From Flavobacteriales bacterium (GTDB lineage: Bacteria; Bacteroidota; Bacteroidia; Flavobacteriales_F; PHOS-HE28): a stretch of DNA of 61,282 nucleotides. The notes under the pieces were generated by a model. The model saw nothing but the letters and a program-made list of their open reading frames with translations. It was not told the DNA's origin and did not search any database. Positions 26,942 through 43,884 of this stretch are shown here, piece by piece. Numbering within the stretch: the stretch's first letter is position 1; each line of letters begins with the position of its first letter. The position numbers and the translations under genes were made by a program. The DNA is taken from contig JAGNUG010000007.1 of the NCBI GenBank assembly GCA_017987115.1, forward strand, positions 1-61,282, read 5' to 3'.

Positions 26942-28351
26942 TTACGGCACTTGCTCCACCCGTGTAGCTGTCGGCACAACCCCGCCAATGGTCTGCAGTA
27001 TGATATCCCGGTCGTTGTTCGTTCCAGTGTAGCGGATGGTGCCATCCATGTTGATGTCCAATGGACTATAGGTGTTCGTCACTGTGGTCGTTGGCGTCGT
27101 TCCTCCAATCGCAGTAAGGATCAGATCACGATCATTGCCTGACCCGGTATATTGAACTATTCCATTGCCATCACCATCCCCTGGCCATAAGCATTGAACA
27201 GACCCAACAGCGACCCTCGCATTCGTACCATGAACGCTCGTCGATATACTTCTCAAGTCGATCAAGGTGTTCGTCGGATCAAGTTCCAATGATCGGGATC
27301 CGGACATCACGCCCAAGTGGTTCCGATGTCTGATCGCTATACGATAAGTTCCGGGTGCCACCGGTGCGTTGATATAGCTCTCACCGTTCAGGCCCATTAG
27401 GTCCCCATCGCGCTGCAACAGTGCGGGGCGCGAATGAAGCACGCCATACGGTGCGCTCGCCGATCGTACTTCCACTACCAACCAATCCACGATGGCGTTG
27501 TTTCCAGTGATCGCCAACAAGGAAGCGCTCATGCTTGCACCGGGTGTTGCGCCCGCATAGGAATATCCTGAACCGCTGTAAGGCTCCACGGTGGGGACCA
27601 AGTTGGCATTGCGCAATCCATCGTTCATCAGGCTGCCGCTGGGAAGCGCCCCGGCCAAAGCGGCACGCACACGGAAGTTCACTCCGCAATCCGTTGGCTG
27701 GATCACAGATGCTGTGGTGAAGGCAATATGCTCTGGACATACCTCGACCAGGCTGCCTTGTTGCCATTCAAAATATCCTGGAAGGTCCACCGTGTGCGGG
27801 CCTGGAGGAACCGTGAAGTCGGAAAGGGCCTCATACATCACTCCGGTACCCGGAAAGCTCCAGTCATCGAAGAACGAATTCAGTGCTCCCCCGTCGAGTG
27901 AATAAACCCACAAATTACTCGCCTGCGTTACCGAGGAGGCCAGCTTCACATGGGTATCAATTGTACCGCACTCCGGAACAGCCCCCTCATAGCCCCAGAT
28001 CCGGTAGGTTACGGCCTGGTAGTCCGCGGAGATCGCTTCCGCGACGCAGCCATCGGCATCCGTCACGATCACTCGCGTACGCTCGGTCAACTCCCAGAAG
28101 GCTTCGTACGGTTGATCCAGCACCTGTCCATCCGCATCAGCGGGATAGGATGAAGCGTAGTTCCAATCCGTGGACCCGATCGGCTGAGTTTCGAGTACAA
28201 TGGAATACGGACCGTTGCCTCCATTGGTCTGCACCGCGATGGATACCGAATGGCAATCGTTCTGGACTTCCAAGGTCGCCGTCATTCCACATTGAGCGCT
28301 TCCGGGTATTGTAACCAAAGCGGTTATGACGAGTTGCGCAAGTCGTTTCAT
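26942..28351 (-). CDS. Secreted protein with shared C-terminal module and two dockerin-like repeats (A)
   Basis: A 469-residue exported protein (signal peptide MKRLAQLVITALVTIPGSAQ). Residues 20-220 are beta-rich and unrecognised. Residues about 225-350 form a module shared with two other genes here, with the landmarks MNDGLR, GNNAIVDWLVVEVRS, SRPALLQRDGDL and RHRNHLGVMS. Residues 387-469 hold two repeats of the type DxNxDGxxxYTGxxNDRDxIL. The first has DGDGNG and the second DINMDGTIRYTGTNNDRD; both look like EF-hand/dockerin-type calcium loops. No type IX CTD sequence was recognised. It overlaps the next gene by 4 bases. Confidence 0.75.
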   Translation of the reverse strand: MKRLAQLVITALVTIPGSAQCGMTATLEVQNDCHSVSIAVQTNGGNGPYSIVLETQPIGSTDWNYASSYPADADGQVLDQPYEAFWELTERTRVIVTDADGCVAEAISADYQAVTYRIWGYEGAVPECGTIDTHVKLASSVTQASNLWVYSLDGGALNSFFDDWSFPGTGVMYEALSDFTVPPGPHTVDLPGYFEWQQGSLVEVCPEHIAFTTASVIQPTDCGVNFRVRAALAGALPSGSLMNDGLRNANLVPTVEPYSGSGYSYAGATPGASMSASLLAITGNNAIVDWLVVEVRSASAPYGVLHSRPALLQRDGDLMGLNGESYINAPVAPGTYRIAIRHRNHLGVMSGSRSLELDPTNTLIDLRSISTSVHGTNARVAVGSVQCLWPGDGDGNGIVQYTGSGNDRDLILTAIGGTTPTTTVTNTYSPLDINMDGTIRYTGTNNDRDIILQTIGGVVPTATRVEQVP

Positions 28352-29859
28352 GGTAATTGCTGAGTTCGTGTAGCTGTTGGCACAACTCCGCCAATGGTCT
28401 CCAAAATAATATCCCTGTCGTTGTTCGTTCCAGTGTAGCGGATAGTGCCATCCATGTTGATGTCCAATGGGCTGTAGGTGTTCATTACCGTGTTGGTGGG
28501 TGTTGCTCCGCCGATCGCAGTGAGGATCAGATCACGGTCGTTATCGGTGCCGGTGTAGCGCACCGTGCCGTTGCCATTGGCATCGCCGGGCCATAAACAC
28601 CGAACGCCGTTAATGCTAGTGGTTGCATTGGTGCCGTACAACGAGGCATTGATGTCACGCAAAGAGACCTGCGCAGGTACTAAACTCAATGAAGTAAGAT
28701 CGCTCATGATCCCCAAGTGGTTCCTATGCCGGACCGCGACCCGGTAGTTGGCCGGGGAAAGGCTGGGGAAATTGACGTATTGGTCGCCGTCCAGATCCAC
28801 GACGTCGCCATCGCGTTGTACAAGAGCTGGGCGCGAGGCAAGAACTGTATAGGGAGGATCCATAGAACGGATCTCCACGATCACCCAATCCACGATGGCA
28901 TTGCTACCGGTGGTGTTCAGCAGGCTTTGTGCTATGCTGGCACCGGCCGAACTGTTCGGGATGAAAGAATAACCTATCGCAGAATAGGGCTCGGTCAGCG
29001 TTAGCAACCCGCTTGATCGCAGGTTGTCGTTCATCAATGTACCACTTGTTGGCATGGCTCCGCCCAATGCGATCTGCGGGGCAATATTTATGCCTGCATC
29101 TCCGAGTGTAAAAGGAGCGACGGGTAGTGTGAACGTCATGCTGCGCGGCGAGCCGAAAGAGCAGTCTTCAACTGGCCAACCTTCGTAAACGATATTCTGA
29201 GCACCGTTGTTCGTCATTGTAAGTGTATAGGTGCCGGGCACAAGATTGGGTAGCACATGTGGAGAACAGTCGCAACCGGTCGAGAGTCCATCCAAGGGTA
29301 ATCCTGCAACGGTACCGCTCATATTAATTGGACCGGAAAGGGTGAAATTGCTTGCTTCCAAAAATTGCCAGCGGTGAGAGATCTCACCAAGTCGAACATT
29401 GGCATTGCCGGTAAAGGCGTTGTATAAGAACCCGCCATCAACGGTGGATTGTACTTGGCATGGATCATTTGGGCATTGAGAGTATTGGTTCGGAACCCAT
29501 GCCTGCCATCCTGGTGATAGTGTGATGGGCTGTTCTTGCGGAAAATTCGACGTAACGCAACCGTTCCCGTCAATGATCTGATACTGCTGTGGAAGTGCCC
29601 CCCAGATAAACTCAGGGAAAGTGAAGGTGCCTAATGCGGGGATCGGGTAGTTCGGTGAGCCACTGTACTGGATCTGGAACGGAGGTATTCCTGCCGTTAT
29701 CTCCACTTGCATCCAGGATTCAAGTTCTGTTACAGGGGGCCATTGAGCATTAGCACAACCGAGCGCTGTTATTTCGGCCACAAGACCGCACTGAGAGAAT
29801 GCGTAGTGCGGGATCCCAATTCCGGTTACCATCAGGAGGATCGATGCGATCTGCTTCAT
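28348..29859 (-). CDS. Secreted protein with shared C-terminal module and two dockerin-like repeats (B)
   Basis: A 503-residue paralogue of the downstream gene. Signal peptide MKQIASILLMVTGIGIPHYAFSQ. Residues 24-270 differ from protein A (Pro/Gly/Asn-rich, beta). The shared module (about 275-395) has MNDNLRSSG, GSNAIVDWVIVEIRS, SRPALVQRDGDVVDLDG and RHRNHLGIMS. Residues 421-503 carry two repeats, DANGNGTVRYTGTDNDRD and DINMDGTIRYTGTNNDRD. The DNA for the repeats is nearly identical to protein A, suggesting recent duplication or gene conversion. The ATG at 29859 is chosen for the signal peptide; an ATG at 29973 would put 38 non-signal residues in front. Confidence 0.75.
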   Translation of the reverse strand: MKQIASILLMVTGIGIPHYAFSQCGLVAEITALGCANAQWPPVTELESWMQVEITAGIPPFQIQYSGSPNYPIPALGTFTFPEFIWGALPQQYQIIDGNGCVTSNFPQEQPITLSPGWQAWVPNQYSQCPNDPCQVQSTVDGGFLYNAFTGNANVRLGEISHRWQFLEASNFTLSGPINMSGTVAGLPLDGLSTGCDCSPHVLPNLVPGTYTLTMTNNGAQNIVYEGWPVEDCSFGSPRSMTFTLPVAPFTLGDAGINIAPQIALGGAMPTSGTLMNDNLRSSGLLTLTEPYSAIGYSFIPNSSAGASIAQSLLNTTGSNAIVDWVIVEIRSMDPPYTVLASRPALVQRDGDVVDLDGDQYVNFPSLSPANYRVAVRHRNHLGIMSDLTSLSLVPAQVSLRDINASLYGTNATTSINGVRCLWPGDANGNGTVRYTGTDNDRDLILTAIGGATPTNTVMNTYSPLDINMDGTIRYTGTNNDRDIILETIGGVVPTATRTQQLP

Positions 29860-40890: not shown

Positions 40891-43884
40891 CTATGGAAGT
40901 GATGCAGCAACCGTAGCGGTAGGCGTAGTACCACCAATGGTTTGCAAGATACGGTCACGATCGTTGTTAGTTCCTGTGTAGCGCACAACGCCGTCCATAT
41001 TCACATCCTCCGGCCAATAGCCTGTTACGGAATTGGTGGGTATCACGCCACCGATACGCTGAAGGATTGGGTCACGGTCGTTATCAGTTCCGGTGTATGC
41101 CACAGTACCGTCGAAGTTGACATCGCCGGCGGCAATGGTCATTGTACCATTATTATTTACACGGGCATCGTTATCATAGACCTGTGTGCTGGGGAGAGTG
41201 AGGTCAACAAATGCTAGAACTCCACCGAACGCGACCGCACTGGATGGTGAGGACATCACTGGCAGGTGGTTCCTTGACCTTATTGCTACGCAATAGTTGC
41301 CTGCCGACAGCCCAGGGAATCCTGGGTAACTCAGACCGTCGAGGTCAACGATGTATCCGTTGGGCAACAACAGCGCGGCTCGCGAAGCGACAACGGTGCC
41401 GGGTGAAGCTGCGGACCGCATTTCCAGGATCAACCAATCCACAATAGCGGTGGATCCGGTACTGGCGAGCAGGCTGGCAGGAATGGTCGCACCTGGTGTG
41501 AATGTCGGTTGCGTATAGCCCATCGCGGTAAAGGGTTCTGTAATGGGGAAGGACGGCATCGTACGGAGGGCATCGTTCATGGTGGACCCGTTGTATGGAC
41601 CATCCAGCAACAAACGTACTGCGATGCGAGGCGCATCCTTGATTCGGGCAATGCGGTTGCGACCAATGCCGTTGACCGTCCTGAAACCACCTACTATCAC
41701 CATTTCCTCTACCGAGGGGAAGACCATTCCGATCACTTCGGATTGCGGTCCAGTTCCGAGGTCGAAGGATGCGTCGTGGGAACCATTCGGGAGTAGTCGG
41801 GCAAGTGCGGGCCGGGAGCTGCCATCCACATTCTGGAAAGCGCCACTAACGTAGACCTTACCGTTCCACGCTACTTTTACTAGTGAGGCGGCACCATTGA
41901 AACCGGTACCGATGTTGAAAGAGAGATCCACTGACCCGTTAGGATCTAGGCGCACAAGGCGTGATCTGGGTTGGCCGTTGAAGGTGGTGAATGCTGATCC
42001 GACCGCTAGGATATTTCCATTAGGCTGGCGTTCGAGATCCTGGACCGCGCTGTTGTTATTGGGCCCTGTGCCGATGTTGAAAATTGGATCAAGACTGCCG
42101 TCGTTGTTGAGCCTGAAGATGGCTCCCACGCTTTCCCCGTTATACAGGGTGGTTCCGCCGGCTACTAGGATCTTGCCGTCGGGGAGATATAGCATGTCAT
42201 ACAATGCACCATTCGAAATGCCTTGGGTGAATGTCGGGTCAAGACTGCCATTAGGAAGCAGGCGGTGTAAGCTTTGGCCCGATAAGGTCAGCACCTTGCC
42301 GTCGGATTGGAGAGCAAGACGTCTGGATGAAGTGATCTGGTTAAAGTCCGTCAGGAAGGTATTGTCGGGGCTACCATCGCTATTCAAGCGCATCACGCGA
42401 CTGCTGTACGTGGCATCGAAAGCATCAACGAAGTGTCCACCGATCACCAGTTTGCCATCCGGCTGCAGCACCACGTCGGTAACCAGCGAATTGATGCCCC
42501 ACCATGCATTGAAGGTGGTGTCCATCTCGCCGTTCGGGTGCAGGCGCGCAACCCGGTTCGCTGTTCTGCTGAAGTAGGACAGGAAACCACCGACCACTAC
42601 AAGCTTGCCATCAGGCTGAAGCACTACGTTATAGGCGGCGAGATCGAAAGCGTTCGCCTGCGCCCAAGTGGGATCTACACTCCCATCAGGCATCAGCCGC
42701 GTGAAGTGGCACTCACCGCGTGAGCCATATGCTTCGAAAGGACCGAGCACTACTATTCGCTGGTCAGGTAGGACCATCACTTGTTGCACTACGGAACTGA
42801 AGTCCACACCGGCGAACACCGGGTCGATCGAACCGTCGGCATTGAAGCGGGTGAGGTAGTCGAGTGCAGCGCCGTTCGAGCCGTTGAAACTCTTCCCAAC
42901 GATCAGCTTACCGTCCGCTTGTGCGGCGATGGTGTTCACGCCGTTAAAGGTGATCGTGGCCGGAACGAAACCGGGATCTGTGGCACCGGAGGCCGAGAGC
43001 AACACGAATTTCTGGCGAGGCTGGCCATTGACGGAGGTGAAACTGCCGCTGAGCCACACTTTGCCATCAGCACGGAGAGCGAGGGCATAGCCAGCGTTGC
43101 CTCCTGCTAGCGTGGGCGAGAAGCTACCGTCCAGTGTCCCTGTTGTCTGCAAGCGCGCGATACAGGGCCGTGAGGTACCGTTATATGTCAGGAAGCTTCC
43201 CACCACCAGGATCTTCCCATCCGGCTGGAGCACAAGCCCCTTAATTGCGTTGTTGAATCCAGTTCCGGTGTTCAGCGTGGCATCAAGCGTACCATCGGTG
43301 TTCAATCGTACGAGGTTGGTGACGCTCGCTCCATTGAAGCTGAGCCAGCTGCCAGCCACGATCAACCGGCCATCCGGTTGCAGTACCATATGATCTACCG
43401 TACCAGCAGAGGTGCCTGTTTGAAATCCAGACCCTGGGTTGAAACTTGTATCCAGCGTGCCGTTCACATTAAGGCGAGCGATGCCACGTCGCGATACGCC
43501 GCCAACTGTAGAGATATTTCCGCCAATGATCACCTTGCCATCATCCTGCACCAGCACTGAATTGATCACTCCGGTAGAAGCCGGTACGAAGGTGGTGTCG
43601 ATGGTGCCGTCCGGCAGTAAACGGGTCACATGCAACCGGGTACGTGTATCATGTAAATTGAAGTTCCCTACGACCACCATACGACCGTCCGGCATCAAAG
43701 CCGCATGGTTCGCTCTGGCCGGATTCACGGCATTGGCGATCCGCAAGCCGTCGTGCAGACCGAAACCGGCATCGCCGGGGTTAAAATTCAGGTCCACGCT
43801 GACCTGTTGTGCAAATAGTCCGCTCTTGAACATAGTAAGGGTCAGAATGAGGAGCGTTCTCCCGAGGTTATTTACTATGTACAT
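40891..43884 (-). CDS. Secreted delta-60 repeat protein with shared module and dockerin-like repeats (C)
   Basis: A 997-residue exported protein (MYIVNNLGRTLLILTLTMFKSGLFAQ). Residues 50-790 comprise about 14 delta-60-type repeats of about 50 residues, each with a core like LQPDGKLVVVGGF followed by RLNxDGSLDxxFN, expected to form a large beta-propeller. Residues about 795-915 are the module shared with proteins A and B (MNDALRTMPS, AIVDWLILEMRS, SRAALLLPNG, RSRNHLPVMS). Residues 919-997 hold two dockerin-like repeats, DVNFDGTVAYTGTDNDRD and DVNMDGVVRYTGTNNDRD. An ATG at 43959 would add 25 residues; 43884 is preferred for the signal peptide. Probably surface-exposed and adhesive. Confidence 0.82.
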   Translation of the reverse strand: MYIVNNLGRTLLILTLTMFKSGLFAQQVSVDLNFNPGDAGFGLHDGLRIANAVNPARANHAALMPDGRMVVVGNFNLHDTRTRLHVTRLLPDGTIDTTFVPASTGVINSVLVQDDGKVIIGGNISTVGGVSRRGIARLNVNGTLDTSFNPGSGFQTGTSAGTVDHMVLQPDGRLIVAGSWLSFNGASVTNLVRLNTDGTLDATLNTGTGFNNAIKGLVLQPDGKILVVGSFLTYNGTSRPCIARLQTTGTLDGSFSPTLAGGNAGYALALRADGKVWLSGSFTSVNGQPRQKFVLLSASGATDPGFVPATITFNGVNTIAAQADGKLIVGKSFNGSNGAALDYLTRFNADGSIDPVFAGVDFSSVVQQVMVLPDQRIVVLGPFEAYGSRGECHFTRLMPDGSVDPTWAQANAFDLAAYNVVLQPDGKLVVVGGFLSYFSRTANRVARLHPNGEMDTTFNAWWGINSLVTDVVLQPDGKLVIGGHFVDAFDATYSSRVMRLNSDGSPDNTFLTDFNQITSSRRLALQSDGKVLTLSGQSLHRLLPNGSLDPTFTQGISNGALYDMLYLPDGKILVAGGTTLYNGESVGAIFRLNNDGSLDPIFNIGTGPNNNSAVQDLERQPNGNILAVGSAFTTFNGQPRSRLVRLDPNGSVDLSFNIGTGFNGAASLVKVAWNGKVYVSGAFQNVDGSSRPALARLLPNGSHDASFDLGTGPQSEVIGMVFPSVEEMVIVGGFRTVNGIGRNRIARIKDAPRIAVRLLLDGPYNGSTMNDALRTMPSFPITEPFTAMGYTQPTFTPGATIPASLLASTGSTAIVDWLILEMRSAASPGTVVASRAALLLPNGYIVDLDGLSYPGFPGLSAGNYCVAIRSRNHLPVMSSPSSAVAFGGVLAFVDLTLPSTQVYDNDARVNNNGTMTIAAGDVNFDGTVAYTGTDNDRDPILQRIGGVIPTNSVTGYWPEDVNMDGVVRYTGTNNDRDRILQTIGGTTPTATVAASLP

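Follow-up and report, generated by a model that had tools for sequence, protein, structure and literature searches.

An XDoc-like C-terminal block that may stand in for a type IX sorting domain in a Flavobacteriales bacterium

The block in the window and in other genomes

The window is a stretch of 61,282 nucleotides from a Flavobacteriales bacterium, whose genome (G000) comprises 3.73 Mb in 202 contigs and is 96% complete. Three of its genes encode predicted secreted proteins that end in a common tail of about 240 residues, here called the block, which consists of a module of about 165 residues and a pair of DxNxDGxxxYTGxxNDRDxIL repeats, Table 1. A conserved proline lies just before the stop codon. 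In BLAST the 252-residue tail of gene 1 matches gene 2 with 64% identity (E 6e-99) and gene 3 with 50% identity (E 3e-59), while a block profile matches none of 1040 shuffled tails. The common C-terminal architecture claimed in an earlier note on this DNA is therefore borne out, but the module is longer than the 120 residues or so proposed there. Of the N-terminal parts, which the note had called unrelated, those of genes 1 and 2 show no clear relationship (BLASTP E 0.16), and the body of gene 3 is a propeller. Genes 2 and 1 overlap by an ATGA at 28348-28351, which suggests translational coupling of these two block-bearing genes.

Table 1. Block-bearing genes of the window and the parts of their tails (window coordinates).
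Feature	Coordinates	Strand	Description
Gene 1	26942..28351	-	469 aa, predicted secreted, signal peptide MKRLAQLVITALVTIPGSAQ..., ends in XDoc-like block
X-module-like beta-sandwich, gene 1	27188..27682	-	Block residues 7-171; AlphaFold strands, pLDDT ~97; aligned to XDoc
Dockerin-like repeat 1, gene 1	27089..27181	-	GDGDGNGIVQYTGSGNDRDLILTAIGG
Dockerin-like repeat 2, gene 1	26972..27067	-	PLDINMDGTIRYTGTNNDRDIILQTIGG
Gene 2	28348..29859	-	503 aa, predicted secreted, signal peptide MKQIASILLMVTGIGIPHYAFSQ, C-terminal XDoc-like block
XDoc-like block, gene 2	28351..29076	-	Profile match 305-546 of 546-residue open frame
Gene 3	40891..43884	-	Predicted secreted delta-60/DUF5122 beta-propeller protein, C-terminal XDoc-like block
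XDoc-like block, gene 3	40894..41616	-	BLAST/profile match

A search of the whole genome locates the block 27 times; in 26 cases its end is intact, and the other case is a remnant interrupted by a stop codon. The three proteins seen earlier all carry it, but they are only part of the set. When the genome is searched with the repeats alone, the block genes are the only ones returned and no repeat occurs without a module, therefore module and repeats travel together. The earlier note had proposed a profile search of Bacteroidota, and this search yields hundreds of block genes. At least 535 relatives are present among named bacterial genomes, and the 80 retained for analysis belong to assemblies of Flavobacteriales or of unclassified Bacteroidetes, including one with the label Chryseobacterium gleum. 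In an even sample of the phylum, 52 out of 394 genomes from many families contain the block.

The block is found at the very end of the protein. In 137 of 138 open reading frames the stop codon follows directly after the exact end of the profile, and the last tripeptide is QLP in 114 of the 138. Block proteins of the genome whose genes are complete at the 5' end start with a plausible signal peptide, judged by hydropathy and by eye; under a strict rule a signal peptide is assigned to 82 out of 123 block reading frames, compared with 16% of control frames. The bodies of the proteins are typical extracellular domains (reprolysin, lysyl oxidase, MAM, Kelch, PKD, GSDH). These results support a strictly C-terminal placement on signal-peptide proteins, a point that the note had put up for testing. 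The two outcomes named in the note as speaking against its proposal, i.e. a block in other positions or one that is a described sorting domain, were not observed.

Some individual copies deserve mention. The remnant (G000:C200:16274-16450) consists of 59 residues with a TAA stop, adjoins two intact block genes and is a decaying copy of the block. Over their final 75 residues the two adjacent window genes (26945-27169 and 28351-28575) and two genes on contig C200 (12237-12458 and 13598-13819) are 85-88% identical, while other copies mostly show 53-71% identity; from the sequences, this would reflect recent duplication or gene conversion of the tail between the loci. Several genomes of 2-4 Mb from families f26 and f34 (G059, G086, G101, G105, G287, G314, G357 and others) have a single block match each, mostly on a protein of about 700-800 residues, and apparently keep one conserved block gene per genome and no large set. 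The typical block gene on the contig labelled as a Chryseobacterium gleum MAG (CAMCAZ010000003.1) may come from a misbinned or misnamed assembly.

Predicted fold and dockerin-like repeats

No sequence model from Pfam, NCBIfam or PDB matches the block, no Pfam or NCBIfam model matches the module alone, and a PDB sequence search with a block profile of 26 rows returned nothing. An AlphaFold model of the 252-residue tail, built with 77 homologues, forms a single unit with a pLDDT of 96 and a pTM of 0.92 over all 252 residues. In the model an Ig/transthyretin-like sandwich is predicted to pack against two dockerin-type loop-helix repeats, each with a YTGxxN insertion of about four residues. Helices 190-197 and 230-237 (pLDDT 96) each follow a DxNxDG-type loop, giving two loop-helix (F-hand) repeats.

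The three best Foldseek matches are X-module-dockerin (XDoc) chains of cellulosome scaffoldins, with E-values from 1.7e-3 (4u3s) to 1.8e-2. In structural alignments to the PDB eight XDoc entries obtain Z-scores of 9.3-10.3, while the next row, which is not an XDoc, obtains 5.4. The XDoc alignments cover 138-151 residues over model residues ~4-252 with an rmsd of 3.3-3.6 and 15-19% identity. With an alignment of only 26 close paralogues AlphaFold folded just the sandwich, the repeats stayed at a pLDDT of ~40 and the structural matches were weak and generically transthyretin-like; the XDoc match thus came from the deeper alignment with distant homologues.

Judged by this model, the block would be a Bacteroidota version of the XDoc tandem. 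It resembles the type II XDoc of cellulosomal scaffoldins (C. thermocellum CipA/CipB, A. cellulolyticus ScaA; PDB 2b59, 3kcp, 4fl4, 4u3s, 4wi0, 5g5d, 5m0y) in the predicted fold over the whole tandem (Z ~10), in its extreme C-terminal location and in having two loop-helix repeats on a sandwich. It differs in that it occurs in another phylum, has no sequence-level match in the PDB, contains the loop insertion of about four residues and is attached to many unrelated enzymes and adhesins instead of one scaffoldin, in a genus where no cohesin was found. A common fold is no proof of a common partner.

The window proteins are not matched by Pfam Dockerin_1 (PF00404). Relatives with canonical loops obtain 13-20.3 bits against a cut-off of 22.9, several of them just under it. 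The module is kept in distant members, but in place of the window repeats many of them have simple dockerin-like loops of 12 residues, such as GDSNRDGQITALDFNTW...DMNLDAQVTALDFNQW. The window repeats are therefore dockerin-like loops with about four extra residues (YTGxxN). The description of the repeats as dockerin-like, with a YTGxxNDRD block that is not standard for a dockerin, agrees both with the predicted fold and with these homologues. Against a 12-residue calcium loop with Asp at 1, 3/5 and 12, repeat 2 retains D1 (100%), N3 (89%), D5 (78%) and G6 (99%) but has the insertion ahead of its last Asp, while repeat 1 is degenerate, with Asp at position 1 in 50% and Asn in 41%. The loops may bind calcium.

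Type IX sorting domains

The genome encodes a type IX secretion system (T9SS), with SprA, five PorV-family matches (one below the cut-off) and 14 PorP-family proteins. Its sorting domains number at least 150 of type A and about 38 of type B. None of these matches falls on a block place, and among 102 type A and 26 block reading frames none carries both. We rejected both types as the identity of the block, as the window proteins have no TIGR04183 or PF18962 match (type A) and the block proteins no TIGR04131 match (type B). Among 28 relatives there are weak type A matches, the best with E 0.09-0.19. NCBIfam also gave no match to the type C domain (ChiA, cl41395), in a library that may lack this model.

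For nine of the block proteins the genome also encodes homologues with a type A domain. In a search that covered 102 of the at least 150 type A genes, nine alignments pair five of these block proteins with type A paralogues, and the homology ends 7-18 residues short of the block in one partner and 13-22 residues short of the type A domain in the other. The clearest example is a lysyl oxidase-like pair with 43% identity over 708 residues (E 2e-178); further examples are a beta-propeller pair and a DUF11/DUF7619 protein that has five partners. The paralogue pairs are a natural exchange of the block for the type A domain. Of all the evidence, this exchange speaks most strongly for a role of the block as a T9SS sorting domain. 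The claim that the block is present in place of such a domain is supported by both the exchange and the lack of type A and B matches on block proteins.

These observations also bear on whether the block has nothing to do with sorting and is a common kind of calcium-binding accessory domain on proteins that are periplasmic or secreted in some other way. Sandwiches of the XDoc-like type and EF-like loops often serve as accessory domains. However, such a domain would not be expected to lie strictly at the C-terminus with a conserved last tripeptide, to exclude types A and B or to be swapped naturally with type A, and we find this explanation very unlikely.

Like the type A domain (TIGR04183, PF18962), the block is C-terminal on the same kinds of cargo and exchanged with it in paralogues, but it is about 240 residues long instead of ~75-80, has a different sequence and a dockerin half, and is matched by no model. 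With type B (TIGR04131, PF13585), which uses PorP/SprF shuttles, it shares a long C-terminal region on adhesin-like cargo; it lacks the sequence match and an adjoining porP/sprF. A dedicated shuttle of the PorP/SprF or PorV family was looked for beside the block genes and none was seen, the 14 PorP genes lying elsewhere. SprA is present in all 52 block-bearing genomes out of the 394 sampled, a weak association since only 5 of the 172 sampled genera lack SprA.

The XDoc-like fold in the position of a sorting domain makes the block probably an export or surface-attachment tag. We consider it reasonably probable that the XDoc-fold tail stands in for a T9SS sorting domain and serves in export, surface attachment or both. 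The block would then be a C-terminal sorting or attachment unit, occupying the position of the type A domain, on cargo that is exported by Sec and next, most likely, by the T9SS, and the proteins would be retained at the surface. The fold, the position, the exclusivity with types A and B, the swap and the cohesin linkage in other lineages are computed observations, while export by the T9SS and surface retention are what we infer from them.

Cohesins as a possible partner

Cellulosomal XDoc modules bind type II cohesin. The block has the same predicted fold, and it could be purely a docking tag that binds a divergent, unrecognised surface cohesin, with export by another route or signal. Three other lineages have cohesins that are fused to the block or encoded next to it, and in two of these there are small cohesin proteins with a type A tail. 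A single reading frame of 787 residues in G078 combines the block with four cohesins. G353 encodes a cohesin protein of 274 residues with a type A tail, and 7 bases downstream of it a protein that has both cohesin and block. The corresponding cohesin protein of G014 has 273 residues and a type A-like tail; its frame runs into the start of a frame for cohesin plus block, after which comes a second block gene. The G014 repeats are of the YSG..NDRS type, the same type as in the window. Over the 394 genomes a Pfam cohesin is present in 35 of the 52 with the block and in 100 of the 342 others (p 2e-7, uncorrected for phylogeny); this co-occurrence is confounded by phylogeny and falls to 2 out of 11 within the window's class.

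Most block loci outside the window's genus have no cohesin nearby, and the genus itself appears to lack one. The Pfam model detects no cohesin in the window's genome, a profile of 55 Bacteroidota members detects none in 35 genomes of the genus (E<=0.01), and hhalign finds none among 117 type A proteins of the genome, although controls were detected at up to 99%. A highly divergent cohesin may nevertheless be present in the genus. The cohesin-like partner suggested in the earlier note thus has linked candidates in G078, G014 and G353 and none in the 35 genomes of the window's genus. We regard a purely cohesin-docking role as unlikely, even if cohesin binding by the block would fit the linked genes.

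The adjoining genes in G353 and G014 for small proteins with a signal peptide, a cohesin and a type A domain would also fit a passenger route, in which block proteins bind to such a cohesin protein while still in the periplasm and leave with it through the T9SS. As no such cohesin was found in the window's genus and the literature search found no precedent, this route is highly improbable.

A more far-reaching possibility, somewhat less likely than not, is that the XDoc-fold block itself forms an additional class of sorting signal. It would then be a unit for cohesin docking which the T9SS recognises directly, used on about 26 cargo proteins of the genome and persisting in the genus after, or without, a cohesin partner. 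In the reading that we favour, the dockerin half would in some lineages probably plug into cohesins that are themselves exported by the T9SS, while in the window's genus, where no cohesin was found, the block probably works through a T9SS shuttle or another receptor.

If true, a fourth T9SS sorting class on dozens of proteins per genome would have been invisible to the family models used, and prediction of the Bacteroidota secretome would change. It would also link the surface plug of the cellulosome to an unrelated secretion system, and make testable how T9SS receptors accept signals of quite different fold. Only the sorting-domain classes A, B and C are listed in a review (PMC10202324), and a 2025 study of T9SS shuttles covers types A and B (PMC12618676). 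In open-licence papers on the motif, on XDoc in Bacteroidetes and on cohesin with T9SS the block is undescribed. A related system is the cellulosome-like one proposed for Ca. Stygibacter (Cloacimonadota), where a cohesin-bearing scaffoldin has a T9SS-type C-terminal domain (PMC8542988), as the cohesin proteins of G014 and G353 carry one for surface attachment. In the available text of that paper, however, the enzymes have ordinary dockerins and an X-module-like block is not reported.

Two more observations concern cohesin proteins. In the window's class, the locus G434:C40:258782-261213 has a reading frame of 1282 residues with three cohesins beside one of 1781 residues with a single cohesin, and no block gene was found in the 18 kb examined. 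In G014, G353 and G267 there are proteins of about 270-280 residues with a cohesin and a type A tail (L161, L162, L163, L171), as well as tandem multi-cohesin proteins with type A tails, so that several Bacteroidota lineages seem to have scaffoldins anchored through the T9SS.
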